This document shows, in pieces, positions 32,558 to 63,980 of a DNA stretch of 64,000 nucleotides. The notes below the pieces were generated by a model that saw nothing but the letters and a program-made list of their open reading frames with translations, did not search any database and was not told the origin of the DNA. The number at the start of each line of letters is the position of its first letter. Positions within the stretch are counted from its first letter, which is position 1. This DNA comes from Halichondria panicea (Eukaryota; Porifera; Demospongiae; Suberitida; Halichondriidae): positions 5,923,651 through 5,987,650 of the forward strand of contig NC_087388.1 in assembly GCF_963675165.1 (NCBI RefSeq). The letters are read 5' to 3'. The position numbers and the translations under genes are program-made.

Positions 32558-32637
32558 CGATTCTCCTAGGTTGTAGATTACAGATCTACCATTCGCTTCT
32601 CAAATTTGTGGGTCTCGAAAAACCACTGTCTTCGACT

Positions 32638-39718: not shown

Positions 39719-41669
39719 ATGGCCCAATTGAAATTAGGTTATGAAGCTCTTGTGAGCTGTCATGAAAAGCTGGTCTCTGAAATTGCTCAAGACCCAAAGC
39801 AGATGGCTGTCTCATTATTCCAGCATCGCTTTATATTTGAAGATACGAAAGCTAAAATCAATGAGCTTGACAGAACCAGAAGAGATAAAGCTATATTGCT
39901 AGTGGATGACATTGAAAGCAAAGTCAAGTGTTATCCAGAGTTCTACGAAAAATTTCTGCTAATTCTCGGTAAAAATGAATTGCTGTATTGCGACCTTGTG
40001 AAGTCGCTCCGGGAGGAGTATGAAAAGATTGAAGCTGAGTCTAAATACGGTGATTTGAATGCCTACCATCACATGCCGGCATGTATACTATGCATCTACT
40101 TCATATAGCTATAGACTACAGTGTGTATAGCTACTACTGCATGAGCTCACTAGATTAGATTTTATGGATGCTATATAAAAACTTTATAATTATACATGCA
40201 ATCACTAATCAACTTTAGCCCCAGTGTATATCACACATTTATGCAGGATACGAAAGCTATCCATTGAGCCTGCTACAACCATTACCTGGATTTGTCATGG
40301 CTGAGGGAACTGGTACAGGTATTTTCGCTATTATTATTATGATAAAAGTCATAAATACAGAACTCAGCATTATTTCTTGTAGGCCTTCCTGAGTTACCCT
40401 CCAGGGACGATGATGATGGAGATAAACTAATCAGAGCAGCTGCAACAAGTCGGCAAGGAGCCCCTACTTGTATGATGTACAGTATATCTGCTATTGATGA
40501 CCCTGGTAATGATATAGATGAGGGAGGACCTGACCATAATACCGATGCAAGTTATTCAGACCCTCATCTGCATAGGTATGGTAATTCAGTGTAACTGATG
40601 ATAATCCAGTATCTAATTAATCTCCAGCATTAACAGGGAGTTCAACATCCAAGTAAACGTGAAAATAAGAAGCCAAACAAAACCTCAACAAAAGCGTGAA
40701 ATTACAAAGCCAAAAGAAAAGCTAACCCATAAAAACAAATGTTACAATTGTTTCTTAAGCTTATTTGTTGGATTCTTGTTCTTGTTTGTACTGGGCTTTT
40801 TAGGTTCACTATTGTACGATGGCTATTCACTCATTAATACTACAATTGTGGCACAAATTCACCGGCAATCTGTACCACTAATTGGAATACTCGACAATCC
40901 ATCAACTTTTGATAGTCTTAGATTCTCAGAACCAACCAACGGAACAGACTTTGTCCCCATTAGCTTCTATACATTGAGGAATTGCTCTTCTTCAGCTTCG
41001 TTCATAGATGTTGATATCAATGAGATTGTGACTGCAAGCTTTGACTCTCTGACTGAAAAGAGCAAGGCTGTTACTAAGTTGTATCTGGCAAGTAATACTA
41101 CACTTACTGTAGATATCACCACTGAAGTCCTCTCAAACTATTCAGTCGGTCATTGTAATGCATTTCTCCTCGTTTTTGATGATTTTAACAATTTCTTAAA
41201 CTTCATTTCAAGCTCTTCTTTAGTCGAAAATTTCTATTACAAAGGATGTATTGAGAACAACAAATCACAAGCTATGATCATGACATTCGACAAACCATCA
41301 TACTACTATATCGGTGTGTACACAGACATTCCGATTGAAGCTACTACTTTCTCTTTACACTTTCTCGGAACATATCTTCAATACAACATTTCAAACGAGA
41401 ATGCTGGTTGCTCTATAGACTCTCGTGACGATTTAAGTTGTGAAATAAAATTATATCCGAATACCAACCAGCAAACCTGTATTGTTGGTTCTGTACCACC
41501 TAGTACTACATTACTTGGAATAAAAGTAACAGCTGTAGACTTTTACGCCGCTGTTAACTCAGACACCAGCATTAATTTTTATTTTTATCTTCCTCTAATA
41601 TTCCTTACGATTGTTATTTGTATTGTGTTTTTTGTTTACTGCTATCCAAAGTTTAGGCTTTTGCACTAA
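39719..41669 (+). CDS. Type A receptor A4: CARD, short linker, two-pass extracellular domain, intact
   Basis: Exons 39719-40049, 40247-40318, 40383-40575 and 40637-41669 join in phase to 542 residues. Residues 1-110 form a CARD (LGYEALVSCHEKLVSEIAQD) more like the type B CARDs than the A1/A2/A6 ones. There is no ankyrin module; the third exon looks like a fusion of the acidic linker with the exon normally before the membrane segment, after loss of the donor at cctacttg. A basic stretch (KPKEKLTHKNK) precedes membrane segment 1 (LFVGFLFLFVLGFLGSLLYD), so the CARD faces the cytosol. The outside part has six conserved Cys, Asn-glycosylation sites and the motif YYYIGVYTDIPIEATTFSLH. Segment 2 (FYLPLIFLTIVICIVFFVY) is near the C-terminus. 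Upstream, gagccccacccccaaaag is the G-rich motif in reverse. Confidence 0.8.
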
Positions 41670-41991
41670 CTGTCCATTATCATGCACCCTATGTTAATTG
41701 GTTCTTAAATTGGTTCATGTTGAGAAAAATATACATTTGCATCTATAGTGAATTAAGTATTAGTTGCAGCTAATATAGCTACTATATATATACGGCTGTA
41801 CTGTCACTAAGTTAAACGAAAATTAATTTCTCCTTCATGCATGTTGGGGTTGGAGGTGAGTCCACTGGACTAATGAAAGCCCCCATTGAACGGGTAGTCA
41901 ATCTACAGCAGAGAGATAATATACTTATAGGAGACTAGCTGTTCTATATATTCAGGTGGATGTGTACTGACTGGTGTATGTACACACATAC
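41670..41991. other. Gene-free stretch
   Basis: 3' flank of A4. No exon or repeat seen apart from AT-rich words. Confidence 0.4.
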
Positions 41992-43538
41992 CTTTTCTTC
42001 CTTGATCTGGAATCAATTCCTGGGCTGGATTTGAGCAGTTCTGATAATTCCTCTGTGCCCCCCAACACTGGAGACCAAGAGTCACTGAGCCTGCAGAGCC
42101 TGAGGGAGAGTATTGCATGGGCATATATTATCAATACCATGCATGCAGTACAAGATTGATACATGTATATATGGCGACAAGATACACTGTATGAAGGTGA
42201 AAATTGTAGTCAACTATATAGAGCCTATAGCTATAGGTGTTTAATAAAGTGATCTGCTGATGGCCAGTATAATTATGGCTCACTCAGAGCTTGACTTGCT
42301 GTCTGTGACCCGGAGTTGAGAGGGAACGTGTGCACGAGCCGGCACAGCTCTAACTCTTGGATACAGAATCTCCTCTGTCGTCTCGCCGAGTCTATCCCAG
42401 CGACAAGCATTGTCAAGGTTCATTCCATCACTATCCTCGATTGAACTCACATCAACTGTCGGATCAAGCCCCCAGTAAGGCTGAGGCAGAAGTTGGGTCA
42501 CCACCATCTTGGCCAAACGCTTTGAGCAGCTTCTTTGTTGAATTACCTTCTGCCTGTAAAGTGTACGAGTTAGACTACGAATATACATGGCCATAGAAGT
42601 ACATCTATATAGCTGCACAGGAAAGCAATTAATAGGTACCACTTTAGTACAAACTACTGTAAATGAGTCTACAATGTATAAAATCCTAATATAGTTATCA
42701 CCTTAAGTAATACTTGTTGACCAATTTTGACCTCAATGAATGCCTTTTCTTTCAGGTACTGCATCTGTTCAGGACTCAATTGGCTGTAGACATTACTTAA
42801 ATATGCTGGAACTCGAAACACCAGCTCTGTACAGCCTTCTCGAACATGCTTCAAATTCAGAACTTGGTGTGGTAGTAGTTGTTCCCAGCATTTCATGAAA
42901 ACTAACTTCAATTGTTGAATTTGATCGTAGGTGATTGCATCAAAGTCAACATCGATCTTACATGTTATCTCCATTGATTCAATATGAGACGGTTCAGGGC
43001 CAAAGTCCTTAACAAATAGAAAACATCGTCGATTAACAAATTGCTGAAACAAACGCTCATAACTCAGTAATGCTTGATCATCATCCTTACATGGAAAAAG
43101 AAATTCTTTTCGTATTGCGGAAATGAGTGAATAATTGAACCAAGAGCAAAAATTATTCTGTATGAAGTCAGATAATTCGCTAAAGCTGGTAACATCACGG
43201 AATAGAATCTCTTCAGAAGTTCTATGATAAATTGGGCTGTAATACGATTCTCGTGGTATTAAAAGCGCCTTGACGTACTGCAATACTTTGGAAATGTCAC
43301 AACGGTTTTCCAGATTCGTAATCGTGTTAGTGAGTAAGCTACAAAACTTCGAATGAATGCGTCGTGTTTCATCACGTAGGGCCTCCATGAACATACTATA
43401 AGAGATTTCTGTGGCTGATATTCTGTTTTCACTACAAGGAGTGTCACGAGTGAATCTTTTAATTTGAGGTGGTTTGGAGCTTAAACACTTATCTCTGCCA
43501 GTGACATGACCCAAGATGGTACACTTCCACAGCCGCAT
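41992..43538 (-). pseudogene. A2-like gene remnant: unnamed domain plus ankyrin, frameshifted
   Basis: Minus exon up to 42702 matches the second exon of A2 almost residue for residue (CTILGHVTGRDKCLSSKPPQ ... GCTELVFRVPAYLSNVYSQL), with the donor in the same place. The next exon, 42553-42284, starts like A2's ankyrin exon, but two bases are lost near 42470 and the ankyrin repeat decays. In the shifted frame it reads on to SKSSS and joins in phase to 42090-41992 (LSDSWSPVLGGTEELSELLK ... RSRKK) ending at a gtatgt donor. The CARD and later exons are missing. Either a pseudogene or a fusion with another gene's exons. Confidence 0.7.
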
Positions 43539-45332
43539 TGAAAGCTAATGAAATCTAGTTACTGCATTGTGTTAACTCTCCACCTGCTTGACCTTTGTAG
43601 TCCGCTAAATGATAGCGACAGAATGCATTTTGAAAGAATGTAGAGGCATGTTATAGTAAATATAGAGGCGATCTCACAATTTATATAGATGCACTCACTG
43701 CATGGTTGGAAGATTCCTCTGTTGTTTGTTGTCTCAATACGTACCTTATGCAGTTTTGTCTGAATGTAGAAGTTTTAAGCGGTTTTGCAGCTAGTCTAAT
43801 GCTATATATACATGCACAAATTCTTAAGTGCATCCCCCATGCAAAAAGAGCTCATATAGTATTCATCAGGGAGTTGTAAGGTCACTGTCATGCAGCTCAT
43901 GAGATTGAGTGGCTGGATTGAGTGTGAGAGCTTACTCACTGCTGCATGCCACACATGCACTGCACATACACGAAAGGCTCCTGGAACACATAATTCAATA
44001 AAGACATTTCTCAGCCTATCAGCAGTATCACTACACAATATTCTTAGCTGACAACGTCCAATCAGATTGTTCGATTCTTGAAACTTCTGTATATACACTA
44101 TAGATCCACATATCTGACGTCAGTTGAAGTATAGGGTTAAAGTTCACTCCGAGCCTGATGCTTGTCAAAGCCAAGTCTGTATATATAAGAGAAACACAGT
44201 GTGTGCATGACAATACTTTACAGTTGGTACAAGCAATTACACTACACAAAGAAATGCTCCAACACAAACATTTGTAGACTCCTCCATGCCGGTATAGATC
44301 ATGCATTCATCATGAATATGATTTAAGATTACCGTGGGTACACTAACATTTAACAGGGGAGGAAATGTGGTATCCTTACCATATGGAACTATAACATTAA
44401 GATAAAGACTGTGATTCCGTACATACTGTGTTGTGTAGTCCATAATTATAATTATGCAATTTTAAAAACCTGACAAGTATAATGTCTAAACCATGCATTA
44501 GTCCTACAAGGCCTACTGTCACAGCATTTTTAGCAGGAAGTTATTATACATACATAAATTATAGTATACATGTGTATACACACACACATGCACATCTGCA
44601 TGTGCATTAGCTGAATTACCAGATCACTGATGGCATGCAGATATACAGTTTTGAAAGTTCTTTCTCTTTGATGCTTTTGCTTCTCACTGTTCTCAGATTA
44701 CATGGAGCCGGGAGTGGCTCATAAAGTAACACGATACTGGAGTGCATACATGTCTGTGCATAGTTTCGAAGCCTAATATTAACGTACTTTAAGTATTATG
44801 CTTGTTAATTGAGCAGCAGCCTGGAGCTAGTGCATGAATACACTCTTCATACCACTCTCCTGAAACCACATGCCTTAGAGTGCATGCATGTGTATACCTA
44901 GAGCACTAAAGTGCAAACCCTCGGCTGGTGACGTGACATGACTATAAGAAACCAGAAGAGTGATATAATACAGCAATGTAGTAATGAAATATCATGTATG
45001 GCTTAACTGTCTAGCACAGCAACTCAGGAGCTAAACCAGACTGGAGGCATGCTAAAACATTTGAGAACAGGGTTTTAGTGGCACATATATATATGCACTG
45101 TGGACTAGGGTCACAGCAAAGAAGCCTGGAGTCTCATGCAGAGAAGTATGGCTCCTGGAATAGGATCCCAGAGTCAGCTAACAGAGACAAACCAGACACA
45201 CAATTCTAGTTTTCTATTGTATCGACCCTGTTCCACATAAAAATAATGAGATTCATAATGCTACTGCGTAACAAAGTTATTGTTTGCTTGGTTTAGGTGC
45301 AAGCTATAGCTAGTTGATTTAATAATTATACC
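43539..45332. promoter_or_regulatory. B-to-A type intergenic region upstream of A5
   Basis: No exon seen. From 43890 to 44110 it has the conserved blocks found at 25.7-26.5 and 54.05-54.3 kb (ctgacaacgtccaatcagat, ttcaataaagacat). Near 44655 there is ttctttctctttgatgcttt, part of the type A upstream region. The rest, 44700-45300, has no repeats that I recognise. Confidence 0.5.
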
Positions 45333-47042
45333 ATGGCCGAATTGAACATAGGTTATGAAGCTCTTGTGAGCTGTCATGAAAAGCTGGTCTCTGAAATTGC
45401 TCAAGACCCAAAGCAGATGGCTGTCACATTATTCTAGCATCGCTTCATATTTGAGGATACAAAAGCTATAATCAATGAGCTAGACCGAACCAAAAGAGAT
45501 AAAGCGATATTACTAGTGGACAACATTGAAAGCAAAGTCAAGTCTTATCCAGAATTATATGAAAAATTCCTGTTCATTCTCGGTGAAAACAAATTGCTGT
45601 ATTGCGACCTTTTGAAATCGCTCCAAGAGGAGTATGAAATTATTGAAACCGAGTTTAAAGAAGGTAATTTGATTGCATAGACTAGGACTTGTGTGTAGAC
45701 TATGTATCTACTTAATGCATAGCTACTAAAAAGTGTGTGCACAAGCTACTACATTATGTACAGTCATGTGATCACTCATTTAGCCCCAGTTTATATTTTA
45801 CTTTGTGCAGGATATGACCCATTAAGCCTGCTACAACAATGCCATTTTGATTGTGGTTTTCACAGTATAAATATTTATATAGGCTTTGGGGAGCTATATT
45901 ACATTAGTATACAGTGCTGAAATTGTGTGTTCGTCTATATAGAAGTACCTATCATGGACGATGGAGATGGAGGGACACTACCTGATCCACTAGAGCACCC
46001 TCCTGATGACACTGAAGTAGGAGCGGACCTCAGAGCAAAAAACCAACAAAAGATTGAAAAGAAGGAAAACAAAAGGACCACTCTATGTCTCATCTTTTTG
46101 TTTGGGGTAACCTTATTGGGTGTAATGAGCACTTTTGGTTTAGTACTGCATTACAACAATCGGTATTTGCTCGTTGGTACTACCAATGTGGCACAAATTC
46201 ACCGGCAATCTGTGCCACTGATTGGAATACTTGACAATCCATCAACTTTTGATAGTGTTAGATTCTCAGAACCAACCAACGGAACAGACTTTGTCCCCAT
46301 TAGCTTCTATACATTGAGGAATTGCTCTTCTTCAGCTTCGTTCATAGATGTTGATATCAATGAGACAATGATTGGAAACTTTGGCTCCTCAACTGATAAG
46401 AGCAAGGCTGTTACTGAGTTGTATCTGGCAAGTAATACTACATTGACAGTAGATATAACCACTGACGTCATCCCAACCTATGCGACCAATCACTGTGTTG
46501 CATTTCTCCTTGTTTATGACGATTTTAGCAACTATATAAACTTTGTTTCCAATTCTTCAGAATTGGAAAATAATTTTTATCACAAAGAATGTATTGTTAA
46601 TGAAGATTCACAAACGATGAATATATCATTCGACACCCCATCGTACTACTATATTGGTGTGTATACAGATATTCCAACTGAAGCTACTACTTTCTCTTTA
46701 CACTTTGTTGGAAATTTTTTTCGATACGACATTTCAAACAGGAACGCTGGTTGCTCTATAGACTCTATTGTTGCTTTTTTAAGCTGCGAATTTTCTCCAA
46801 ATACTAATTCCATGTCCAAGGAAACTTGTATTGTTGGTTCTGTACCACCTAGTATTACATCATTAGGAATAAAAGGATCAAGTGTAAACTTTTACACTGC
46901 TGTCGTTTCAGCCACAAAAAGTGTGATCTATTCTAGTCTTCCTATAATTATTGTTGTTTGCATTATTTGCATTGTGAGTTCCATCTATTGTTGTTGTTTG
47001 TGTTATCAAACGAAGACCAAAGACCGTTATTTTGTACACTAG
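45333..47042 (+). pseudogene. Type A receptor A5, single nonsense codon in the CARD
   Basis: Exons 45333-45663, 45811-45864 and 45943-47042 join in phase (494 codons plus stop). The CARD exon matches A4 closely, but codon 35, CAG in A4, is TAG. Everything after it is open. In the third exon the acidic linker (GDGGTLPDPLEHPPDDTEVG) is joined directly to a basic stretch and membrane segment 1 (LCLIFLFGVTLLGVMSTFGL). The extracellular domain keeps all six Cys, and a second membrane segment (SSLPIIIVVCIICIVSSIY) is followed by a cytosolic Cys-rich, basic tail. A product could start at a later ATG without the CARD. One substitution would restore it, so it may be a recent loss or a polymorphism. 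Confidence 0.8.
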
Positions 47043-47939: not shown

Positions 47940-48300
47940 TGGTACGACTATTTGCAACGCCTTGAATGCTGGTGAAAAAGTTGAATACATGATACATTCA
48001 ATGCATTGCTAGTTTAGGCTTATCGTTGTCATTAGAGACTAATTGCCAGTGCTCTATGATTGGATGTGTTGTCAGCTTAATTGGCTTGTGTGATCTGCAA
48101 TATAAAAGTGCCTCGAGTTAAGATACCTTTGGTGGGATCAATGAAATTTCTTCACTTCACTGAATTGATGCTGGTCATTTCCATTATATTACCGCTATTG
48201 CTCAGTAACTTGCAGAGCTAACAACATCTGCTTCCATTTGGCTCTAGTTTTTCATAGACTGCACTAAGATCATCTAAAGCTGAGAACTTGGAGTCCATGA
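47940..48300 (-). pseudogene. Relic of a type B gene, B3
   Basis: Short pieces survive in order on the minus strand: the start of the Death domain (48295-48208, complement of cttccatttggctctag), the first small exon (complement of gatgctggtcatttccatta near 48170), and the acceptor border of the membrane exon (caacgccttgaatgctggtg near 47956). No coding capacity. Confidence 0.65.
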
Positions 48301-48849: not shown

Positions 48850-50641
48850 CTATGTATATGCAATAATAATTATGATTGCAAATACCAAAACAAAGAAATT
48901 TGGAGTGCACTGTTTTCTATTGCTACTTGGAGTGGGAGGTACTATAGCAACAACACACAATTCATCGTTTTCCTCAGTCATAGAAATACTAGATAGTGAA
49001 ACAGTACATTGCCTGATGTTGTCGTCATATAATATAACCGTGCACGTACTTATAGATTTCTCTGCAATCTCATGGATATTATATTGATGAGAAATTCCAG
49101 AGATGCGTAGATTGATGGTAGTAGGTACCATAGTAGTACAGATCACCAGACCAGCGTATAAATAGGAGTTTTTATTGAGCACTATCATCGCAGACAACCG
49201 ACTTCGGTTTAAACAAAATTTAAACAAAAAACCAGTTTGTATGCCAGTCTTCTGATTCAGAAACTCGGTATAATTATACTTCCAGGTCATCATATATCGC
49301 TAGAATAACTGGGCAATCACATGAGCTGGACACAATAGCTTGAGATGGGGTAATTGAATATGTTAGACTGGACCCATTCAAATAATAGCCTTCGTCAACG
49401 TGTTGTATTGGTCTAGTTACGCTGAAAGAGATCGGTTTATTCACAGCAACATGGTCAACATCCAGTTCTTGACAATCGTTGACTGTGAAGTCAATGAGAA
49501 ATCCTCGAGAAAGCTGGTTCTTTTCAATTACAGTGAGACTTATCGAGTCATGTGTACTCTTGATAAATGAGTTAACAAAGATTGCAGACATTTCAGGAAG
49601 TTGACATATGCTGTTTACATTGATGTTTAGGGGTGATGCAGGAAGAACAGTATTCATGTCTGTTGTAGAAAATGTAGGCTCTTCAAAACCAGTAGTGGGC
49701 TGAGTGGGCGGAGTTGACGTTATTGTCCATGGAGATTCAGAAACATTAGTGGGCAGAGTTGATGTTGTCCATGGAGGTTCAGAAACAGTAGTAGTTGGAA
49801 ACACTAAAGAATTTTCAGAACCAGTAGTGGGCGGAGTTGACGTATCAGTATGAGATAGCTCTAGTGTGAGAACAGGCAGTAAGACTGCTAAGACCACCAC
49901 TGTTAGTACCACAATGACAACCAGTAAGATTATTATCGTCAAGAGCCACGACCATTTGCATCGCCTTGAATGCTGATGAAAAAAGTTGAATAAATAATAC
50001 ATTAAATATAATGCTAGTTAAGGCTTACCGTTGTTACTAGAGACTGATCGCCAGTGCTGGATATGTCTCCATGATTGGTGTCAGCTTTGCTTGTGTGATC
50101 TGCATTCAGTGCATTCATGTTGTGAATAATTATATAGAAGTGTCTATATAGAGTTAATTTACCTTTGGTGGGATCAATGGAATTTTTCTGCTTCACTGTA
50201 TTGATGCTGGTCATTTCCATTGTGCCGCTATCAGACCCTTAATAGAGTATAATATAATGATTGTAATTCCGAGCAGGTATAGCACTAACCATTAGTAGCC
50301 AGCTGCAGTGAAGAGGAACTCAGTCTGTACTCTGTATTTCCGGTAGCTTTAGTAAGACATCTTTCGACCACCTTTGCGAGATCATTGTGCCCAACACTAG
50401 AACGTGAGAGAGCCTCAAACACGTCTGTCCAGTTTCTCTCACCACCTTTTAGCCACTCTGATAGACCCTCAAGATAGCAGTTATCAGGATCTTCACGACA
50501 TCTTATATTGATAGTTTCAATAGTAGAATTATTAACTTGCAGAGCTAACAGCATCTGCTTCCATTTGGCTCTAGCTTGCAATGTTGCTTCATAGACTGCA
50601 CTAAGATCATCTAAAGTTATTGAGAGTTTGGAGTCGGCCAT
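48850..50641 (-). pseudogene. Type B receptor B4 without CARD, frameshift in the extracellular domain
   Basis: Minus exons 50641-50290 (Death domain from ATG, MADSKLSITLDDLSAVYEA), 50237-50163, 50099-50029 and 49972-48850 join in phase. The last exon starts HSRRCKWSWLL and a long membrane segment, then a stalk of about 75 residues rich in Ser/Thr/Pro with a repeated (V)SE(S/P)PWT motif. At about 49272 four extra bases (within tataattatac) shift the frame and give a stop after AIYDDLEV. The other frame continues YTEFLNQKTGIQTGF to the usual hydrophobic tail. No CARD exon precedes it. The truncated protein would keep the Death domain, membrane segment and half of the outside domain. Confidence 0.8.
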
Positions 50642-51354: not shown

Positions 51355-53832
51355 TTAAACTGTAAATAATAGCGTTATTGCAGATACTAAAACAAAGAAA
51401 TTAGCAGTGCACTGTTTGCCGTTGTTAGGGGGAGTACAAGTAGGAGCAAGAGGAGATAGTCTCGGAGATACCAGAGCAACAACACACAGTTCATCGTTTT
51501 CCTGGTACACATTAGAGAGCGAATTTATAGTACAGGTGTTGATGTAGTGATGGATAACGGTGCACCTGCTCAAGGGTTTCTCCGCAATCGCAAGGATATT
51601 ATATTGGTAAGAAATTTCAGAGAGGCGTAGATTGATGGTAGTATGTACAATAGTGGTACAGATCACCAGACCAGCGTATAAATAGGAGTTTTTATCAACC
51701 ACTATTTTTGTAGACAGCTCGTCTCGATTGAAGCAAAAGTCAACGATAAAACCAGTTTGTATACCAGTTTTCTGATTCAGAAACTCGTTATATATTTCCA
51801 GGTCATTATATATCACTAGAATAACTGGGCAATCACATGAGCTGGACACAATATCTTGAGATGGGGTAATTGAATATGTTAGACTGGACCCATCCAAATA
51901 ATAGCCTTCGTCAACGTGTTGTATTGGTCCAGTTACATCCAAAGACAACGACTTATTCATTACTGTACGTTCAACATCCAATTTTTGACAATCGTTGATC
52001 GTGAAGTCAATGAAGGCCCCTTGAGGCAGCCAGCTCCCTCCGAATATAGATAAAATTAAGAAATCGATTGTATGTTTGATAAATGAGTCAACGAAGATTG
52101 CTGACACTTTAGGCAGTTGATATATGCTGTTTACATTGATGGGTAGGTCTGATGCAGGAGTCGTGCCACCTGCTACGGTGACGTCTATTGTAGCTGTATG
52201 AAATGTACTCACTGTTGGAGTCGATTCAGAAACAGTAGTATATACGATGGGTGGAGGTGAAGTTGACGTATCAGAATGAGATAGCTCTAGTTTGAGAACA
52301 GGCAGTAAGACTGCTAAGACCACCACTGTTAGTACCACAATGACAACCAATAGGATTATTATCGTCAACAGCCACGACCATTTGCAACGCCTTGAATGCT
52401 GAAGAAAGTTAAATTAAATTCGCATTCATTGTCATGCATGCACAGCCACATGCATCTGCACATGCACATGAGTACATGAAAGTAACTAGTTTAAGCTTAC
52501 CATTGTCACCAGAGATTGATCGCCAATGCTGGATACTTCTTCGTGATTGGTGTCAGTTTGGTTTTCATGATCTGCATTCATGCAATGTTGTTATAAAATT
52601 ATGTGGCTCCTGATAGTTTGGAGTGTATTTATATACCTGTAGTGATGTCAAGCTGACTTTTCTGCTTCACCTCACTGATGTTAGTCATTTCTATTATGCC
52701 GCTATCAGACGCTTAAGGAGTATAATAATGATTGTAACTCCGAGCAGGTATATGTACCACTAACCATTAGTAGCCAGTGAAGATGAACTCAGTCTGTACT
52801 CTGTATTTCCGGTAGCTTTAGTAAGACGTCTTTCGACCACCTTAGCGAGATCACTGTGCCCAATACTAGAGCGTGAGAGAGCCTCAAACACGTCTGTCCA
52901 GTTTCTCTCTTCACCTTTTAACCACTCTGATAGACCCTCAAGATAGCAGTTATCAGGATCTTCACTACATCTTATATTGATAGTTTCAATAGTAGTATTA
53001 TTAAGTTGCAGAGCTAACAACATCTGCTTCCATTTGGCTCTAGCTTGAAATGTTGCTTCATAGACTGCACTAAGATCATTCAAAGTTATTGGATTTTGGA
53101 GTCCTTCACGATGGTTAGAGCGATTATGCATACCTGCTGAGTTTGCTTGATCCACAGCTTCTAAGGCCTTGCAAAGTCAATTTGTAGTTTCTCAGGCCCT
53201 GCGCTTGGAAATTGACAGCTTTAAAAAAAAGTTAAATATCACGTGACCTCAAATTAAAGGCACTAAAAGAAAAGAAAAGGAAAAATGTTTATGGGTTTTT
53301 GATCATGAATAATTATAATTATGACTAAAATTAATTAATGAAAATTATGCACTTCTGCTTATTAAGGAAGTTAGGGGTGTGTTTTCAATTAAAATTCTAT
53401 GAATATCATTATCATTAATATTTATCAAATGCCTCTTGCTATTTTAGAAATAATAGCTTGAGAAACTACAAATTGACTTTGCTTGGCCTAACTCCTTGTA
53501 CTTCATCCACAGCTTCTAACTCCTTGTACTTATCTGTAAGCACTGATAAGAGGAGGTCATCATGTCGCTCGTTCCTTTCCCGAAGTATTGTAATGAATTT
53601 ATCATAAGTTCCCTGAAAACTTTTGACTTTTGCATGCTTGCAATTTTAGCACTAGTATTCTGGCTTTATCCGTGTTTGTTTTGTCAAGCTGATTGATTTC
53701 CTGATTCGTTTCGTATGGTATTAAATGGTTTTGAAACATAACTCCAGCATTTCCTCCCGGATCTGAAGCAAAGTCAGCAACTAGCTGCTCGTTGCAGCTC
53801 ACCAATACATTGTAACCAACATTTGTTGTCAT
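51355..53832 (-). CDS. Type B receptor B5: Death domain, membrane segment, extracellular domain; CARD exon disrupted
   Basis: From ATG 53131, exons 53131-52765, 52711-52637, 52571-52501 and 52398-51355 give 518 residues without a break. Residues 10-120 are a Death-like helical domain (LEGLSEWLKGEERNWTDVFE). Then a linker, the basic HSRRCKWSWLL, a membrane segment (TIIILLVVIVVLTVVVLAVL), a short stalk, and the outside domain with SSLTYSITPSQ, CDCPVILVIYNDLEIYNEF, and ELCVVALVSP, then a hydrophobic C-terminus (ANFFVLVSAITLLFTV). Upstream, a CARD exon starts at ATG 53832 (MTTNVGYNVLVSCNEQLVAD) but has a 4-base insertion near 53636 and a 312-bp MITE at 53171-53482. A product without CARD, from 53131, would need its own promoter. 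Confidence 0.7.
53171..53482. mobile_element. MITE inserted in the B5 CARD exon
   Basis: 312 bp with inverted ends starting gcaaagtcaatttgtagttt and ending with the complement. It splits the end of the CARD exon (compare 25164-25200); the local word ccacagcttctaa is present on both sides. The flanks aaggcctt and ttggccta are similar but not identical, so the target duplication is uncertain. Confidence 0.75.
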
Positions 53833-54559: not shown

Positions 54560-55068
54560 CCAACAGTATTTTCAGGGAGTTATAGCAGCACAGTGTGTGA
54601 ACATAGACTCACACATTTCTGTACTAGCTAGCTGAGTTACCTGGTAATGTGGCAGAGACAGTTCAGTGCAGGATTTCTTTCTCTTTGATGGCTTTTGCCT
54701 CTTCGGTTTGTCTTCTTGACCAGTTGAGATTTGCCGACATCTCCTCTGTTTGTTACTAGCAGTGAGGTTGAGATGGAGTGTGTGGGGGCGGGTAGTGTGT
54801 GGGCGTGGAGTGGGTTAGGAACAGTGACCGTACAATCTCTATTGGCTGCTTGAGTGGTACAAAAGTCGTTTGATTGGACGAATGAATGTTGGAACAGGAG
54901 GGATTGGGTATATACCAGAGTTAGTTTTAACTTAATGAGATCATGAATAATTTTGCTCTAATTAGTCAAGTTATCACACCACCTCAGGCTCTGCTATAAG
55001 ATTGGGGGTGGGGCTCATTTTCATAATAATAATGCTAAAAGCTTATTGTTCACTTACTGTCAAGCATC
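54560..55068 (+). promoter_or_regulatory. Type A upstream region of A6
   Basis: Full-length version: cacacatttctgtactagct, then gaccagttgagatttgccga, then gggcgggtagtgtgtgggcg (near 54788), then attgggggtggggctcattt (near 55000), 50 bases before the ATG. The order and spacing match those before A2. Confidence 0.55.
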
Positions 55069-58000
55069 ATGTCTGAGTCAGCTGAGTACAAAGCATTCAA
55101 GGACTGTCACAGCAGTCTTATTACTTGCATCAAGCAGTCTCCCAAAGATATCTGTGATCATTTACTCCCTTTTGAGATTCTAGCACCAAACGATCGAGAT
55201 TATCTCAAGAATGACACTCATGATGATGGTGACAAAGCACGACGAATACTTGATGCTGTACTGCTCCAGATGGAAAATAGTCCACTGGTTTTTCATTCAT
55301 TCGTTAGTGCTCTTGAAAAAGCTGGTAGTTTTACGAAGGCTGGTGTACAAAGACTCAAGGATGCATTACAGAGACGAAATCAAGAACAGTGCGATCAAAG
55401 TCAAAGAATAGAAGAGAGTGGTAGGTTGTATAAATATAAATCCTAGATTGTATTATGAAAACCCAACTCATGGATTACTATGTATGCAGCCAATATCCGT
55501 AAGACATTGTTAACTGACCTATTTTTATGATGCCTATACTGGACTATAGCGGGTTCCGAATTAAAGAAGCGTATGAAAGGATTGAAGCCCAGATCTAGAG
55601 TCAGCGATGCATGAAAGCATACCCAACCAATCAAATAACTGTATAATTATATTATAGACTCTATATAATTATATCTAAATCTACAACAATTTTCACCTCA
55701 CTAGTCTAGCTGGAATTAAAAGGAGAAATCAGAGTACACTAATTGACCTTACGTGCCAATGTGTATATAGAATAGTGTATAGAGCAATCTCACTTCACAC
55801 TCTGTATAGTAGTTGATTTTAATAATTTAAGGCTTACAAAGGCTTGCATTTCACGTGAGTTGAAAAGTGACTTAAGTGTGTGAAAAGCAAATTAATCTCA
55901 GTTCACTGATTTTGTATATACAGGATATGAGAGCTATCCAATAAACCTGCTACAACCATTTCCTATGCCGTTTGGATTTGTCATGGCTGACGAAACTATA
56001 TCAGGTACTTTCTTTATAATTATAAAGGCTCTATTTATAATAGGAACTGTACTGTAACACAATAGTGGTACTGGCTTCTTTTCTTCATACATGTACTGTA
56101 CTACTATATACATAGGCATTCTTGAATTACCCTCCGTGGATGATAAAGAGACACTACCTAATCCATTAGAGCACCCTCCTGATGACGCTGAAGTAGGAGC
56201 AGACCTCAGAGCAGCTGCAACAAGTCGACAAGAAGCCCCTACTGGTATATATGTGAATGGAATTAACAGTTGTGCTATAATGTGTGTTTACTAATTGCTA
56301 CAGTTGATACATTTGAAGGACGATTGCTACAAACCTTCCAAAGTAGAGAATTTGAACAAGCCATTGAGCTTCTATCTCAGGCTGAAAGTCAGTACATTGA
56401 TCTGAGAGGTGTGTCTGATGCAGATGGCAAAACTCTCCTTCATCTTGCATGTCGTAATGACTGGATGGACTGGCATGGCATTGTGTGTAGCCTCATCGAT
56501 AAACACCATTGCGATGTCACAGCAGTAGATGAAGATGGGAACACACCTCTTCATGAGGCATATCAATGTGGCAATCTCTTATCAGTAAAGTATCTGCTTA
56601 GCTTACCGACTTGTAATCCTGATGCAGTCAACAAGCACGAGTACACTGTGCTGAGAATGGCCCTTGAAAAGAATGACAGAAAATCTGTAAGAAATCTTTT
56701 AGCGACAGGACGAGTCGATCCTAGGAAAGGTAGCTCATGTGGTCATACATATCCAGAACTACTTGCAATAAATCAGCTTCAACCACAACCACAAAATTAC
56801 GATGGCTCAGCTCTTCAAATGGTGACTCAGTTCGCAAAATGTATGGAGAGTAGCAAATGCAGTATTTGCCCGCCTTTCACTTCTTATTGCTTGCGAGATA
56901 CCCTCCATAAAATCTTGAAGAATCGTGATCAAGTTTCAATCCCTAAAATAGTAGATTGTATTAAAGAGAACATGTTGCCTCTTCCAGCAAACCCAGACAA
57001 GATTCATGATTTGCTTGTGGATATTCAAAGCTTGTCAGACGAGTTTAACATATGTACTAATGAATTAGGGGAACTTCAAGTTCAAAGAAGAGACACAGCT
57101 TTAAGTATGTTACAGTAGCTCTATTGCATTATAACTATAACTGTGTCATAATTATGTATACAGGATATGAGAGCTATCCAGTGAGCCTGCTACAACCATT
57201 TCCTATGCCGTCTGGATTTGTCATAGCTAATGAAACTATATCAGGTACTTACCGTATAGCGGGTATATTTCGAGGGTACAAATGTTCGCGGTTTTCGCGG
57301 ATTGAGTCTGTACCGCGAAAATTTATACCCACGAAAATTTATGAATAGTAGGCGTGTTCAGTATTATGGATTCGAGGCTAACGGTGTGGCGGTACAGCTG
57401 CATGTTGATGTGCGCATGCGCCAAAAGGCTGGAACTCAGACCACGAAAATAAAATCTGCGAAATCCTTTGTAGAGGTCCATCCGCGAAAATTTATACCCT
57501 AGAAATATACCCGCTATACGGTATGTTATACAGAAGGCTATGTATAGGAAATTATAACTATGCTGATACAGCTCTTGTGCCAAATATAGTTAGCTATGAT
57601 GCAGTGCTAGTATCTCTTCTTTTCTTGTGTAGTTCTTGAGTTACCTACCATGGGCGATGGGGATGGAGAGACACTACCTGATCCATTAGAGCACCCTCCT
57701 GATGACGCTGAAGTGGGAGCGGACCTCAGAGCAGCTGCAATAAGTCGACAAGAAGCCCCCACTGGTATGTGACTGTAGTACTTGTGCGATAATTATGACG
57801 GATGTATTAACACAATTGCAGTTGATTCATTTGAAGGACGATTGCTGCAAACCTTCCAAAGTGGAGAATTTTACCAAGCCATTGAGATTCTATCTAAAGC
57901 TGAATATCAGTCCATTGATCTGAGGAGTGTGTCTGATGCAGATGGTAAAACACTCCTTCATCTTGCATGTCGCAAAGGCGGAGTAGACTGGAAGAGCATT

Positions 58001-61000
58001 GTGTGTAGCCTCATCGATAAACACCATTGCGATGTTGCAGCAATGGATGAAGATGGGAACACGCCCCTTCATGAAGCATATCAATATGTCAATCTCTCAA
58101 TAGTAGAGTACCTCCTTAGTTTACCGACTTGTAATCCTGATACCATAAACAAACAGGAGTACACTGTACTGAGAATGGCCCTTGAGTTAAATGACAAAAG
58201 GACTGTGAGAGATCTTCTAGCGACAGGACAAGTCGATCCTAGAAAAGGTAGCTCACGTGGTCATACATATCCAGAACTACTTGCAATGAATCAGCTTCAA
58301 CCACACAATTACGATGGCTCAGCTCTTCAAATGGTGACCCAGTTTTCAGAGTGCATGGAGAGTAGCAAATGCAGTATTTGCCCGCCTTTCACTTCTTATT
58401 GCTTGCATGATACACTCCACAAGATCTTGAAGAATCGTGATCAAGTTTCAATCACTGAAATAGTGAATTGTATTAAAGAGAACATGTTACCTCTTCCAGC
58501 AAACTCAGACAAGATTCATGATTTGCTTATGCATATTCAAAGCTTGTCAGACGAGTTTGACATACGTACTGACGAATTAGGGGAACTTCAAGTTCAAAGA
58601 AGAGATACGGCTTTAAGTATGTAGCTCTATATTGTGATTATATGTCCATATAATTATATACAGGATATGAGAGAAATCTGCTACAACCATTTCCTATGCC
58701 GTCTGGATATGTCATGGCTGATCAAACTACATCAGGTACTTTCGTTATATCGAAGGCTCTATACAATTGTACTGTATGATATAACTCCTGCGTCAAATGT
58801 AGGCAGTCATGCATATATACACATGCAGTGCTGGTTTCTCTTCTTTTCTTGTAGACATTCTTGAGTTACCTACCACGGACGATGGAAAGACACTACCTGA
58901 TCCATTAGAACACCCTCCCGATGACGCTGAAGTGGGAGCGGACCTCAGAGCAGCTGCAACAAGTCGACAGAAAGCACCTTCTGGTATGTTTACAGTATAC
59001 TTGTGCAATATAATGGATATATTTAAACAATTGCAGTTGATTCATTGCTGCAAACCTTCCAAAGTGGAGAATTTGAGCAAGTCATTGAACTTCTATCGCA
59101 GGCTGAAAGTCAGTCCATTGATCTGAGAGGTGTGTCTGATGCAGACGGCAAAACTCTCCTTCATCTTGCATGTCGCAAAAACTGGGTGGAATGGCACCAC
59201 ATCGTGTGTAGCCTCGTCGATAAACACCATTGCGATGTCGCAGCAGTGGATGAAGATGGGAACACACCCCTTCACGAGGCATATCAATGTGGCAATCTCT
59301 TATCAGTAGAGTACCTACTTAGTATACCGACTTCTAATCCTGATGCAATCAACAAACACGAGTACACTGTACTGAGAATGAGCCTAGAGGCAGATGACAG
59401 AAAAACTGTAAGAGATCTTTTAGCGACAGGACGAGTCGATCCTAGAAAAGGTAGCTCACGTGGTCATACATATCCAGAACTACTTGCAATGAATCAGCTT
59501 CAACCACAAGATTATGATGGCTCAGCTCTTCAAATGGTGACCCAGTTTTCAGAGTGCATGGAGAGTAGCAAATGCAGTATTTGCCCCCCTTTCACTTCTT
59601 ACTGCTTGCGTGACACCCTCCATAAAATCTTAAAGAATCGTAATCAAGTTTCAATCACTGGAATAGTGAATTATATTAAGAAGAACTTGTTACCTCTTCC
59701 AGTAATCCCAGATGAAATTCATGGTTTACTTCTTGCCTTGTCAGACGAGTTTGACATGTGTGGGGAGCCTACTAACAATTTTGGAGGAATTCAAGTCAAA
59801 AAGAAAGGTATTAAAGTGGGTATATATTTCATGTGCACAGGCATGTATAGCAATTGTTACACGCTTATAATTATATTCCACAGGAGCTAGATCTGCAGCA
59901 GCACACTTTCAACATGATATTCAACAGCAGAGGGCAGGGCAATCTCCTGGGAATTTCGAATTGCTTGCAGCTAGCAGCTTCACTGAAGTTGAGGTGCCAG
60001 CTGCAGCCAAAAATATCACTGAAGATGAAGAAACACCTGACTACCACTCCGATGCAAGTGACGCAGTGCCCCTTTTGCAACAATCACATACAGAGGTATA
60101 TAATACCAATACTAGCTATGGCAAAAAGGCAAAAAGGCATACTAAACGAAATTCTAGCCACGCATCTTCTGATAGGAGCTTAGTACTTTAATACGTGTAC
60201 ATTTTAGAACCTATATTTTCTTAAACAGGTGCAGAAATCAACACGAAGTTGTAATATAGATGAGTCCGACGTTTACTGTGCATATACAATGTGCTTATTT
60301 TGTTACTTTTGTTGGTTTGTTGTCTTCTTGATTCTCGGAATATGTGGTGCAGTATTGTACAATGGCTATTCATTTGTTGGTACTACTGATGTGGTACAAA
60401 TTCACCGGCAATCTGTGCCACTAATTGCTATTCATAATTTATCAGCTAATTTCATTCGGCTCACAGAGATCAATGAAACAGACTTAGTCCCCATTAGCTT
60501 CTACATGTTAAACGATTGCTCTTCTAAAGATGTATTTATAGACATTAAGATCAATGAGATTGTGACTGTAAGCTTTGACTCTTCGACTGACAAGAGCAAG
60601 GCTGTTACTGAGTGGTATCTCCTTGGAAACACTACACTTACTGTAGATATCACCACTGTTGTCATTTCTAACTTTTCAACCAATCATTGTATTGCGTTTT
60701 TTCTTGTTTTCGACAGTGTCAACAAGTTCTCAAACTTCATTTCAAGTTCTTCTTTAGATAAAGAATTCTATTACAAAGAATGTATTGCAAATGAAAAATC
60801 ACAAACGATGAATATAACATTCAACAAACCATCATACTACTATATTGGTTTGTACACAGACATTCCCACTGAAGCTACTACTTTCTCTTTACACTTTCTC
60901 GGGACATATCTTCAATATGAAATTTCAAACGGGAACGCTGTCTGTACTATAGACTCTCTTGATAATTTAAATTGTGATTTTTCTCCAAATATACTAAATA

Positions 61001-61209
61001 CCAACCAGCAAAGTTGTATTGTTGGTTCTGTTCCACCTATATATACTGATACACAATTTGGAGTAAAAAGAGCAACTGTAGCCCTTTACACTGCTGCTAA
61101 CTCAGACGCAGCAATAGATGCGTATTTTTTTATTCCTCTGTTATTGTCTGTTTTCTCATTTTGTACTGTGACTATATGTTTTTGTTCCAAATTTTTTTAT
61201 GATAGTTAG
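55069..61209 (+). CDS. Type A receptor A6: CARD, three ankyrin modules, two-pass extracellular domain, intact
   Basis: Twelve exons join in phase to 1511 residues: 55069-55420, 55924-56004, 56116-56244, 56304-57104, 57164-57244, 57633-57764, 57822-58616, 58664-58735, 58855-58983, 59037-59807, 59884-60095, 60229-61209. Residues 1-117 are a CARD (SAEYKAFKDCHSSLITCIKQ). Then comes a module used three times: a GYESYP linker exon, an acidic linker (LPDPLEHPPDDAEVGADLR) and a large ankyrin exon with DGKTLLHLAC, DGNTPLHEAY and CSICPPFTSYC. Exon 11 is Ser/Ala-rich. Exon 12 has membrane segment 1 (CYFCWFVVFLILGICGAVLY), six-Cys outside domain (IHRQSVPLI, YYYIGLYTDIPTEATTFSLH) and segment 2 (FFIPLLLSVFSFCTVTIC). 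By charge the CARD is cytosolic. Role inferred: a sensor that recruits CARD partners. Confidence 0.8.
57252..57521. mobile_element. TA-inserting MITE in A6 intron 5
   Basis: 270 bp with inverted ends ccgtatagcgggtatatttc. It is flanked by TA on both sides (57250-57251, 57522-57523). The paralogous A1 intron at about 1981 has the empty site ctta-tgttatac with one TA, which proves the insertion. TA target use is typical of Tc1/mariner. Confidence 0.9.
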
Positions 61210-62007
61210 TGATTTATGATTCATGTTTTGAAATTATTGATCTCGCTAATATTGGTCTTATAACACGGACAATATTTTTAATTTATACTTATAATTATAT
61301 ACGATGCATGAATGAATTAATATAGATCAGTACTGACCCTATAGTACATAATTATTGTGCTGCACATGCACGTACAAGTGCATATCATTGTTATATGTAC
61401 CCTGTACTCCCCCTATGCAATGAGCCCTTATCATTCTCCCAAAAAATGTGACATAATAATTTTAAGACGTAGACATAAGACGGTAATCTTCTATTGAATA
61501 TCCACTATCAGTGAAACAATCAATTCATAATAATCACAGAAGATCACAGTTCTGCGAAAACACTTCTAAGTGTTTACGATATAGAGAAGATTGCCGTCTT
61601 ATAAATACAACTGACACAAGCATGATTCTCTTATGACAAGCCATTTTTGTGATTATGTAAAACTTAATGTAATTGTTCTTTAATTAGAATTATTTTCTAT
61701 AAGTGCAAAGATTAAAGGCGTGGCTTCCGGTAAGCAGTCATTTCCATGAACATTGTGCAACGAAATGCTTTTAGAGGCCATGATAATGCATTCCATGAAA
61801 TATAAGTGCCTCAAAAACTTTGCGCTATACTGTATATATAGTTGCTATGCCAATTTTTAAACAAAACAGTTAGTCGGCTATAATTTAATATAATTATATA
61901 TGAAAAGTATGGGCATGTAACACAATATGACATTTCCTTGTATAAATCATTGACTCACATGGCATGAAAATCTCAGTCTAACATATATAATTTTAACGTA
62001 TACATAA
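61210..62007. other. A6/B6 tail-to-tail interval
   Basis: No exon. It contains one small hairpin MITE (61475-61602). The end (61930-62000) matches the type B 3' flank (tcattgactcacat). Confidence 0.5.
61475..61602. mobile_element. Small MITE
   Basis: 128 bp; ends ataagacggtaatcttct and its near-exact complement (one mismatch). Non-coding. Confidence 0.7.
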
Positions 62008-63980
62008 TTATAGTATATACAACAGTATCTTAGCAACTACCATGAAGTTGAATATTGCACACACCAAAGCAAATAAGTTTGGAGTGCTCCGTTTGCCATT
62101 GCTGACACTCACACCAATTACACTAGTAAGATTAACAGGAAATACTATAGCAACAACACACAGTTCATCATTGTCCTCAGTCATAGTGATACTAGTAGAT
62201 AGTGAAATGGTACATTGCTTGATGTTATTGTCATATAAAATGAAGCAGGATTTCTCACTAATCACATGGATATTATACTGGTGAGAAATTCCAGAGATGC
62301 GTAGATTGATGGTAGTAGGTACAATAGTAGTACAGATCACCAGACCAGCGTATAAATAGGAGTTTTTATCGACCACTATTTTTGTAGACAGCTCGTCTCG
62401 ATTGAAGCAAAAGTCAACGATAAAACCAGTTTGTATACCAGTTTTAAGAAACTCGGTATATATTTCCAGGTCATCATATATCACTAGAATAACTGGGCAA
62501 TCACATGAGCTGGACACAATATCTTGAGATGAGGTAATTGAATATGTTAGACTGGACCCATTCAAATAATAACCTTCATCAACGTGTTGTATTGGTCTAG
62601 TTACATTCAGGGAGATCGATTTATCCACAGCAATACGGTCAACATCCAGTTCTTGACAATCTTTGACTGTGAAGACAATGAGAGATCCGTGAGAAAACCG
62701 GATTTTTTCGAATACAGTGAAAGTTATTGAGTCGTATGCATGCTTGATAAACGAGTTAACAAAGATTATATACCCCCCAGGCAGTTCGTATATGCTGTTT
62801 ACAGTGATGTTTAGGTTTTTTTCTGATACAGGAAGGACAGTAGTCATGTCTGTTACAGCAATTGCAGGAAACACTAAAGAATCGTCAGAAACATTAGTGG
62901 GCGGAGTTGATGTTGTCCATGGAGATTCAGAAACAGTGGTGTATACGATGGGTGGAGGTGAAGTTGACTTATCAGTATGAGATAGTTCTAGTGTGAGAAC
63001 AGGCAGTAAGACTGCTAAGACCACCACTGTTAGTACCACAATGATGACCAATAAGATTATTATCGTCAACAGCCACGACCATTTGCAACGCCTTGAATGA
63101 TGATGAAAAAGGTTGAATACATGTATACATTCAAGTTTAGGCTTACCATTGTCACCAGAGACTGATCGCCAGTGCTGGATATTTCCCCATGATTGGATGT
63201 TTTAGCTTGGCTTGCGTGATCTGCATACATCAGTGCATGTTGTAAATAGAATTGGTCCCTCGGTGCATTAACTTACCTTTGGTGGGATCAAGCTGACTTC
63301 TCTGATCCATCTCACTGATGTTGGTCATTTCCATTATGCTACCAGACCCTTAATAATTATGATCAAAATTATTGCTTATACATGCAGGTACCACTAACCA
63401 TTTGTTGAACTCAGCCTGTACCCTTTAGATACTGTATGTCCAGCATGTCCACTAAGACGTCTTTCGACCACCTTAGCGAGATCACTGTGCTCGACACTAG
63501 AGCGTGAGAGAGCCTTAAATACGTCTGTCCAGCTTCTCTCTTCACCTTTTAGCCACTCTGATAGACCCTCAAGATAGCAGTTATCAGGATCTTGACGACA
63601 TCTTATGTTGATAGTTTCAATGTTAACTTGCAAAGCTAACAACATTATGCATACCTGCTGAGTTTGCTTGATCCACAGCTTCTAATTTCTTCTGTAAGCA
63701 CGGAGATGAGGAGGTCATCATGTCGCTCATTCTTTTCCTGAAGTATTGTAATGAATTTATCATAAGAAAACTTTTTACTTTTGCTTGCAATTCTAGCACT
63801 AGCATCCTGGCTTTATCCGTATTTATCGTGATAAGCTGATTGATTTTATGATTCATTTCGTCTGATATCAGATGGTTTTGAAACAAAACTCCAGCATTTC
63901 GTTTTAAATCGAAAGCGGTGAGTAACTATATCTTCTCGTTGCAACTCACCAATACATTGTAACCAATATTTGTTGTCATA
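62008..63980 (-). pseudogene. Type B receptor B6: extracellular exon open, 5' half broken
   Basis: The CARD exon starts at ATG 63980 (MTTNIGYNVLVSCNEKI), then meets TAG at codon 18. The Death domain (63645-63399) lacks its first helix: the CARD end and the middle of the domain are fused out of frame by a deletion at about 63650. The small exons 63348-63277 and 63220-63147 are fine. The acceptor before the membrane exon is AT instead of AG (plus strand gaatgatgatg where B2, B4 and B5 have gaatgctga). The membrane/extracellular exon (63098 or so to 62008) is fully open: TIIILLVIIVVLTVVVLAVL, stalk with VSESPWTTSTPP, SSLTYSITSSQ, CDCPVILVIYDDLEIYTEF, hydrophobic end. At least three lesions make normal expression unlikely. 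Confidence 0.8.

Follow-up and report, generated by a model that had tools for sequence, protein, structure and literature searches.

What family of proteins is encoded by a cluster of exons in the demosponge Halichondria panicea that combine CARD or Death-like domains with membrane segments, and how is it related to known Death-fold receptors? We analyzed a 64,000-nt stretch of NC_087388.1 (assembly GCF_963675165.1), hereafter the window, of which positions 39719..63980 had been described by an initial annotation as a clustered superfamily of membrane proteins with cytosolic CARD or CARD-Death ends, and extended the search for the outside domain of these proteins to the genome.

Extent and classification of the cluster

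A total of 49 outside-domain units were identified across ~305 kb of C12, and one further outside-domain gene, unlinked to this cluster, was located on C6, so that the proposed superfamily was largely borne out and is larger than described, extending far past 39719..63980. The 20 A units lie on the plus strand, and the 19 B and 10 C/D units (8 C and 2 D, counted together as C) on the minus strand, with A, B and C/D units interleaved. An upstream CARD or Death-like exon on the same strand and before the next unit was recorded in 45/49 units, and an unbroken one in 29 of the 34 unbroken units, "unbroken" meaning a single match without a stop and not a proven gene, with the fragments of one broken copy merged; this pairing is more than chance. 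The genome-wide Pfam CARD search returned 27 matches and no cluster CARD, though at least one cluster CARD scores over the cut-off, and the genome-wide family counts are therefore lower bounds. The window itself contains eight outside-domain units (4 A and 4 B), five of them unbroken (A4, A5, A6, B4 and B5); the 12 loci initially counted there are reached only with the orphan CARD, ankyrin and TRADD-N-like exons included (Table 1).

The placing of A and B in one family was confirmed by the homology of their outside domains (hhalign probability 92.5, E 5e-7). A tree built from 22 outside domains placed the 12 A rows and the 5 B rows in two solid groups, with an unresolved root and with long branches meeting. 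Because L064 (5915933) grouped beside B and apart from the three C rows, this unit and its near-copy at 6024906 were called type D; the remaining five C units were placed outside the tree, by search matches and the TRADD-N-like exon. Median pairwise dN/dS was 0.56 for A (78 pairs) and 0.64 for B (14/15 pairs, one pair with dS <=0.01 being left out), and the outside domain is under net purifying selection. Pairwise comparison of A and of B did not show positive selection on the outside domain as a whole; within A, pN/pS was 1.20 in a single 30-codon block, at reference residues 271-300.

Table 1. Exons and units of the family in the window, by gene (window positions)
Feature	Positions	Strand	Evidence or remark
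Orphan CARD exon	87..413	+	followed by ankyrin exon at 997-1848
A3 CARD exon	5357..5683	+	
A3 TRADD-N-like plus ankyrin exon	5936..7648	+	
A3 TM1 and outside domain	9708..10415	+	cut short
A4 exon 1, CARD	39719..40049	+	Pfam CARD 25.0 bits, AF2, Foldseek, splice model
A4 linker exons (40247-40318, 40383-40575)	40247..40575	+	splice model
A4 exon 4, TM1, outside domain, TM2, short tail	40628..41669	+	splice model, AF2 beta-sandwich core
A5 CARD exon	45342..45647	+	broken, in-frame TAG
A5 TM1, outside domain, TM2	45921..47042	+	open frame
A6 exon 1, CARD	55069..55420	+	Pfam CARD 22.5 bits, just below cut-off; splice model
A6 exons 2-10, three tandem three-exon cassettes	55924..59807	+	one ankyrin exon in each; splice model
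A6 exon 11, linker	59884..60095	+	splice model
A6 exon 12, TM1, outside domain, TM2	60229..61209	+	splice model
B-type CARD exon	25162..25503	-	stop-free; neither Death nor outside exon found downstream in window
B relic, outside domain and Death-like exon	35440..37070	-	outside domain broken, Death-like exon partial
Orphan TRADD-N-like exon	42672..43544	-	no outside unit downstream in window
B3 outside domain	48853..50017	-	broken into two frames
B3 Death-like exon	50348..50638	-	used as search query
B4 TM1, outside domain, hydrophobic C end	51355..52398	-	splice model
B4 linker exons (52637-52711, 52501-52571)	52501..52711	-	splice model
B4 Death-like exon	52765..53131	-	Pfam Death 14.1 bits, below cut-off 22.6; splice model
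B4 CARD remnant	53499..53832	-	split across two frames
B5 TM1, outside domain, hydrophobic C end	62011..63201	-	open frame
B5 Death-like exon	63454..63645	-	partial
B5 CARD remnant	63653..63979	-	TAG and second frame

Death-fold domains and exon order

The Pfam cut-offs were 23.9 for CARD (PF00619) and 22.6 for Death (PF00531). Among 11 CARD exons scanned (2 broken), two scored over the cut-off (39719-40105 at 25.0 bits and L015:656-952 at 26.3), one equalled it (L011, 23.9) and two had no CARD match at all, and the exon at 55039-55443 reached 22.5 bits (E 1.2e-4), under the cut-off; the matches at 39719-40105 and 55039-55443 bear out the proposal that type A carries a CARD N-terminal to its first membrane segment. 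The AF2 model of the A4 CARD (mean pLDDT 86.5) has the six-helix fold with the first helix broken into two pieces (3-13 and 15-22). In Foldseek, CARDs or CARD-bearing chains made up 46 of the 50 PDB matches listed, with a TM-score of 0.72/0.79 against Apaf-1 and a best E of 0.27 among the matches listed, so that the CARD fold claimed for type A withstood structure prediction. The best PDB match of the CARD profile was ICEBERG, deposited as a protease inhibitor (E 0.0017). The Death assignment, as read from profiles, is weak: in six Death-like exons scanned, Pfam Death was below the cut-off in two (B4 at 14.1 bits and the C6 gene at 13.1 bits) and absent in four (50285-50671, 63394-63681, L031 and L032), and the Death-like profile matched FADD chains in the PDB (E 0.072-0.59) mixed with designed helical proteins (best E 0.053).

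Joining exons at GT-AG sites gave stop-free predicted frames of 545 aa for A4 (4 exons) and 1511 aa for A6 (12 exons, with a Pfam ankyrin match in the third cassette), and B4 has an open predicted spliced frame of Death-like-TM-outside order (518 aa). CARD exons precede A, C and D units, and Death-like exons are found in B and in the C6 gene; a B-type CARD exon was found before both A and C outside domains. Type C and the C6 gene begin with a Death-fold, which is followed in turn by the TRADD-N-like domain, ankyrin, membrane and outside domain. The TRADD-N-like domain occurs in type C, A3 and the C6 gene and is absent from other A and from B; it gave no Pfam match and no TRADD match in the PDB. 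Gly-Cys is invariant at its turn in 4/4 copies, with the strand placement read from the sequence and not predicted, and the hallmark of TRADD-N is a tiny residue plus Ser, at times Cys, at the turn between strands 2 and 3 (excerpts of PMC8195603).

Type B is, on its predicted exons, a Death-like-membrane-outside protein, with the Death-B exon 516-1280 bases upstream in 18/19 units. The N-terminal CARD initially assigned to it did not hold up: both copies in the window are broken (a TAG in B5, two frames in B4), and a CARD-Death end fails for unbroken copies, as no B unit of the cluster has an unbroken CARD, Death and outside part together. The CARD-Death-TM order was likewise rejected for the unbroken copies of the cluster, since among 10 B units with an unbroken outside part four had a nearby CARD-B exon and all four exons were broken (5977149, 5987303, 6059949 and 6097863, ~0.5 kb or less from the Death exon). 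At 6087529 and at 6130278 an unbroken CARD-B exon is followed, 4-6 kb on, by a Death exon that is partial and an outside part that is broken, and an ancestor with both domains is therefore possible.

Membrane topology and the outside domain

Two membrane segments, the second near the C end, were found in A, C and C6 proteins, so that both ends should be inside, and a single-pass receptor was rejected for these types on account of the second segment. In A4, five K/R occur among the 15 residues before TM1 and none after it, and all seven NxS/T sites of exon 4 lie between TM1 and TM2. Across the 13 A, C and C6 frames holding both segments, 2-8 NxS/T sites were counted between the segments and 0-1 in the flanks, and 10 of the 13 have six Cys between the segments. 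In most of the A, C and C6 frames, hydropathy, charges and NxS/T sites all point to a predicted inside N-terminus and outside loop, and they do not support an outside N-terminus. The basic pattern before the segment, from which an inside CARD had been deduced, stands for A4 and most frames and is weak or absent in L023, L024, L025 and 60208. The A, C and C6 frames end 6-35 residues past TM2, and no RING was found in Pfam scans or in these tails. B proteins have a C end that stays hydrophobic as far as its last residues; this stretch may either span the membrane or act as a GPI signal.

The outside domain comprises ~250 residues with conserved cysteines and a beta-sandwich core in the AF2 model. 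A profile search of the PDB with 22 outside domains gave one chance-level match (E 0.53), and assignment to a known family was rejected, since Foldseek against the PDB and a viral library gave generic beta-sandwiches (TM-score by query <=0.26 among the matches listed). APD1-4_M (PF16041) matched 4/22 outside domains, all under the cut-off of 25 (best 22.3 bits, E 1.5e-4, profile positions 7-107 of 108), on the second half of the domain and TM2. Twelve exons of this genome, on C8 and C17, score over the cut-off for PF16041; three APD frames read share the TM-outside-TM arrangement, and among the matches listed no CARD or Death-like match lay within 10 kb of the 12 exons. Unlike the APD1-4 E3 ligases, the cluster family has no RING and stays below the Pfam cut-off. 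The membrane-outside-membrane module is the new part, and the outside domain is perhaps a distant relative of APD1-4_M.

Relation to known systems and possible function

Death receptors of the TNFR/p75 type have an outside domain, one membrane segment and a C-terminal Death domain inside; the cluster proteins share these parts in reversed order, with the Death-fold N-terminal. The closest systems known to us in print are recorded in excerpts of PMC8195603. In Crassostrea virginica, ~50 proteins carry an extracellular Cys-rich domain, a TM and then DED and TRADD-N, an expanded family likewise combining an outside domain, a membrane segment and Death-fold plus TRADD-N inside, but with the outside part N-terminal and one TM, where the Halichondria proteins have an N-terminal Death-fold and an outside loop between two TMs. 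In Amphimedon, 357 TRADD-N proteins, an expansion of the NCOA6 clade, were reported; in most of them 1-3 N-terminal Death-like domains precede TRADD-N, and the C-terminus varies, ankyrin repeats or SH3-LRR being the commonest. Such a Death-like, TRADD-N-like and ankyrin order is shared by type C, A3 and the C6 gene; they differ in the C-terminal TM-outside-TM module, which those excerpts do not mention for Amphimedon. The statement that no described family has this architecture stands for the whole (Death-fold, membrane, outside domain, membrane), which was not found in the literature searched, and fails for the inner half; since intracellular relatives of that half are described in Amphimedon, the family resembles a known expansion in a membrane-anchored form. 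The NLRs of the sponge Dysidea avara, as given in an excerpt of PMC12909245, also form an expanded family with N-terminal CARD or Death, but the window exons scanned contain no NACHT or LRR, and membrane segments and the outside domain stand in their place.

Our preferred reading, held without great confidence, is that the genes probably form a tandem family encoding Death-fold sensors that are anchored in the membrane and work by clustering. A cytosolic N-terminal CARD or Death-like domain, followed in some members by TRADD-N-like and ankyrin parts, would be linked to a TM, an outside beta-sandwich domain and a second TM with a short inside tail. Once something at the surface (or in a lumen) bound or clustered the outside domain, the CARD or Death domains would be brought together beneath the membrane and would seed homotypic assembly, which is established for such domains, with soluble partners of the CARD or Death kind; signalling towards cell death or defence would then start. 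For this reading we infer the splicing, surface location, ligand, homotypic recruitment and output.

Other explanations have to be weighed against it. The proteins would be membrane-bound decoys or brakes if they held CARD or Death partners and damped soluble Death-fold signalling, with the outside domain mainly an anchor; no effector or enzyme domain was recognised in the scanned exons of A4 and B4, and the ICEBERG match also fits, yet the coding constraint and conserved cysteines of the outside domain, and the TRADD-N-like and ankyrin parts of C and C6, go against a mere anchor, and we hold this to be improbable. A role in organelles or trafficking, with the outside domain facing the lumen of the ER, Golgi or endosome as in APD1-4 or p24/TMED and the Death-fold only oligomerising, is suggested by the weak APD1-4_M matches and by structural matches that include p24/TMED GOLD domains (TM-score by target 0.61-0.67). 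However, comparing profiles with the APD genes of this genome gave nothing significant (probability 0.5%, E 0.11), the structural matches are generic and the short tails lack RING, which leaves this role quite improbable.

The gene models could also be mistaken, the CARD/Death and TM-outside exons being separate adjoining genes that are not spliced together. The distance from N-terminal to outside exon is up to 10 kb in some units, and the small linker exon of A4 and A6, found by pattern search (26 sources) with an AG acceptor and open frame in six places, has a stop in two other A loci (L015 and L016); but the order is kept in 45/49 units and in the unlinked C6 gene, the three predicted spliced frames (A4, A6 and B4) are open and A6 exons 1-10 every one end in phase 1, and such a mix-up appears most unlikely. 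The cluster would also seem larger than it is if the assembly had placed two haplotypes next to each other, a reading suggested by eight compared locus pairs with 95.7-99.0% identity over the longest match and three matched pairs with a common offset of 44156 bases. This is very unlikely, as the A outside domains are mostly 50-72% identical to each other and the A, B and C/D units are intermixed; such a doubling would reduce the counts and leave the architecture unchanged.

Sponges reject non-self tissue and tell microbes apart, and to our knowledge few candidate sponge surface receptors have a direct line to cell-death signalling. For the membrane-anchored sensors we infer immune or self-recognition sensing. 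A more far-reaching version, possible but rather unlikely, would make them an undescribed two-pass receptor class with N-terminal CARD/Death signalling, in which, within demosponges, a TM-outside-TM module was grafted onto a Death-fold/TRADD-N/ankyrin scaffold and the class diversified by tandem duplication, N-terminal exchange and possibly alternative splicing of phase-1 ankyrin cassettes, for self or microbe recognition with cell-death output. The cluster combines, within a single predicted protein, a CARD or Death-like domain with the outside domain, at a compact locus in which this can be tested, and if the TRADD-N-like reading is true, it adds a membrane-bound branch to the Death-fold/TRADD-N/ankyrin expansion of Amphimedon.

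Extent and membrane layout of the family

The window spans C12:5923651-5987650 of a genome of 131.5 Mb in 39 contigs. The genome was searched with one type A and one type B outside domain, the domain between membrane segments TM1 and TM2, and matches were confined to C12:5874318-6179464 and one place on contig C6. After pieces were merged, a total of 49 units were counted, of which 20 of type A all lie on the plus strand and 29 of types B, C and D all on the minus strand; 34 were unbroken (15 A, 10 B and 9 C/D). Going upstream on a unit's own strand, a CARD or Death-like exon was met ahead of the next unit in 45 of the 49, and in 29 of the 34 unbroken units this exon was unbroken as well (CARD in 13/15 A and 7/9 C/D, Death-like in 9/10 B). 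Among units with an unbroken outside part, the B-type CARD precedes an outside domain of type A once and of type C three times. Eight pairs of loci share 95.7-99.0% identity, representing either recent duplication or haplotypes placed side by side. The copies, with median dN/dS of 0.56 and 0.64, are under net purifying selection.

Membrane layout was examined in 20 family frames. Both TM1 and TM2 were present in 13 (types A, C and the C6 gene, an unlinked member on that contig), 248-293 residues apart, with 2-8 NxS/T sites between the segments, 0-1 in the flanks, and six intervening cysteines in 10 of the 13. Only the C-terminal segment was seen in L064, TM1 was not found in L015 and L049 in the frame used, and in type B TM1 is very hydrophobic and the C end hydrophobic. 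Lysine or arginine ahead of TM1 was clear in A4, A5, L013, L014, L019, L032 and others, and weak or absent in 60208, L023, L024 and L025. These residues and the NxS/T sites suggest that the initial annotation was probably right in placing the N-terminus inside; its number of membrane segments was wrong, given TM1 and TM2 in the 13 frames. Its description of type B as CARD-Death also fails for the unbroken copies, the spliced model of B4 being an open frame of 518 aa in the order Death-like, TM and outside domain. The spliced models of A4 (4 exons, 545 aa) and A6 (12 exons, 1511 aa) are open too, A6 having phase 1 at the end of each of its first ten exons and three ankyrin cassettes in tandem.

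Features located in the window and elsewhere in the genome
Feature	Location	Strand	Content
Type A CARD exon	window 39719	+	Pfam CARD 25.0 bits (cut-off 23.9)
Type A CARD exon	window 55039	+	Pfam CARD 22.5 bits (cut-off 23.9)
C6 gene	C6:5879273-5883193	one strand	Death-like, TRADD-N-like, ankyrin, TM-outside-TM
Type C locus	C12:5987611-5995600		CARD, TRADD-N-like, ankyrin, second Death-like, TM-outside-TM
TRADD-N-like domain, type A	window 6029-6952	+	92% identical to next row
TRADD-N-like domain, type C	L072:1730-2677	-
APD1-4_M genes	C8:5481986-5610812 (L069)		TM-outside-TM, tandem copies
APD1-4_M genes	C17:1898537-1915762 (L070)		TM-outside-TM, separate tandem copies; the C17 one with PPPYNP tail, ankyrin frames upstream on same strand
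Type B Death-like relatives	C1:15.49-17.36 Mb; C6:0.002-1.2 Mb		many, 38-57% identity (150 of 525 candidates scored)
Short repeat beginning TATAGCGGGTATATTTCGAGGGTA	window 57253-57526		in A6 intron; inverted copy of its beginning at other end
Same repeat, two insertions	C12:5991301-5995600 (L072)		near type C gene
Like open frames, GFPSIRHNELRD...	window 38456-39404; L069:4000-4329		second in C8 APD cluster
Retroelement open frame	window 27968-32599	-	1543 codons; zinc knuckles, protease-like motif, integrase-like part, then reverse transcriptase and RNase H (order read by eye)
Protein kinase-like, two overlapping frames	window 19767-20709	+	HNDLKVDNVVL, VDFGKA

Domains predicted on either side of the membrane

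The CARD of type A in the initial annotation was borne out by the Pfam scores, one on each side of the cut-off, and by a structure model of the A4 CARD built from five window rows (pLDDT 86.5), for which 46 of the 50 PDB matches listed were CARDs or CARD-bearing chains. The lowest E-value among those matches was 0.27, so the weight lies in their uniformity. The five-row profile matched ICEBERG (E 0.0017), caspase-1, NOD1 and caspase-9 in the PDB, as well as unrelated helical proteins.

Exon order in the C6 gene and the type C locus was read from unspliced exons. A TRADD-N-like domain lies upstream in 8 of the 10 units first counted as C, the remaining two being type D. Gly-Cys is invariant in all four copies compared, at the apparent place of the TRADD-N motif, given by Kaur et al. 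(PMC8195603) as a tiny residue with Ser, at times Cys. Since no Pfam family was recognised and no TRADD appeared among the PDB search matches, the domain is named only TRADD-N-like. The near identity of its type A and type C copies points to a recent exchange between types.

The second Death-like exon of type C was not recognised by Pfam Death, and its closest relatives among the matches listed are on C13 and C10, at no more than 80% identity. Many copies 64-80% identical to it were seen on these two contigs (150 of 558 candidates scored), as if the exon had been taken from another large family. The many relatives of the type B Death-like domain on C1 and C6 point to a very large Death-fold repertoire in the genome.

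The A and B outside domains are homologous. APD1-4_M was the sole Pfam family matched by more than two of 22 outside domains (4/22, all below cut-off), with matches that lie in the latter half of the domain and, in L013, extend into TM2. Twelve APD1-4_M exons elsewhere in the genome exceed the cut-off (10 on C8, 2 on C17), and three APD1-4_M frames read have the same TM-outside-TM layout as the A, C and C6 frames. Profile comparison of the outside domain with this APD group was not significant (probability 0.5%, E 0.11). The structure model was poor overall (pLDDT 57.8), with a beta-sandwich core at residues 101-200 (76-91 per block) whose matches were generic, including calpain, p24/TMED GOLD domains and a collagen-binding domain. 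Kinship with APD proteins is no more than possible.

Other elements of the region

The TATAGCGGGTATATTTCGAGGGTA repeat looks like a MITE, and the GFPSIRHNELRD frames resemble the final stretch of a retroelement protein. An integrase before the reverse transcriptase is unusual among Ty3/gypsy-like elements and is found in Gmr1-like elements. A silicatein probe matched two loci in which the catalytic Cys is replaced by Ser (GDCGASYAF, QCGSSYAF), which fits a siliceous demosponge. Both stretches also contain a stop close to one end that may mark an intron border, so the fit is support rather than proof.

Possible role and relation to known sponge families

CARD and Death domains are known to assemble homotypically. 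Placed next to a membrane, together with an outside loop that carries cysteines, they would suit a sensor acting by clustering, and this combination of assembly and position favours such a sensor, with a decoy or a trafficking role as less likely alternatives. The loop may be turned to the sea water, to an adjacent cell or into the lumen of an organelle.

In the literature, searched mostly outside subscription journals, no N-terminal CARD or Death domain fused to a TM-outside-TM module was recognised; with coverage incomplete, absence in print is weak evidence. The initial annotation knew of no described family of this kind, which holds, as far as searched, for the architecture as a whole and was too strong in denying kin. 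The membrane branch is real and sizeable, undescribed as far as searched, and looks to be built on the known sponge Death-fold expansion. If the TRADD-N-like reading is right, its inner half would be the layout known from Amphimedon (PMC8195603), and types A and B would be cut-down forms.
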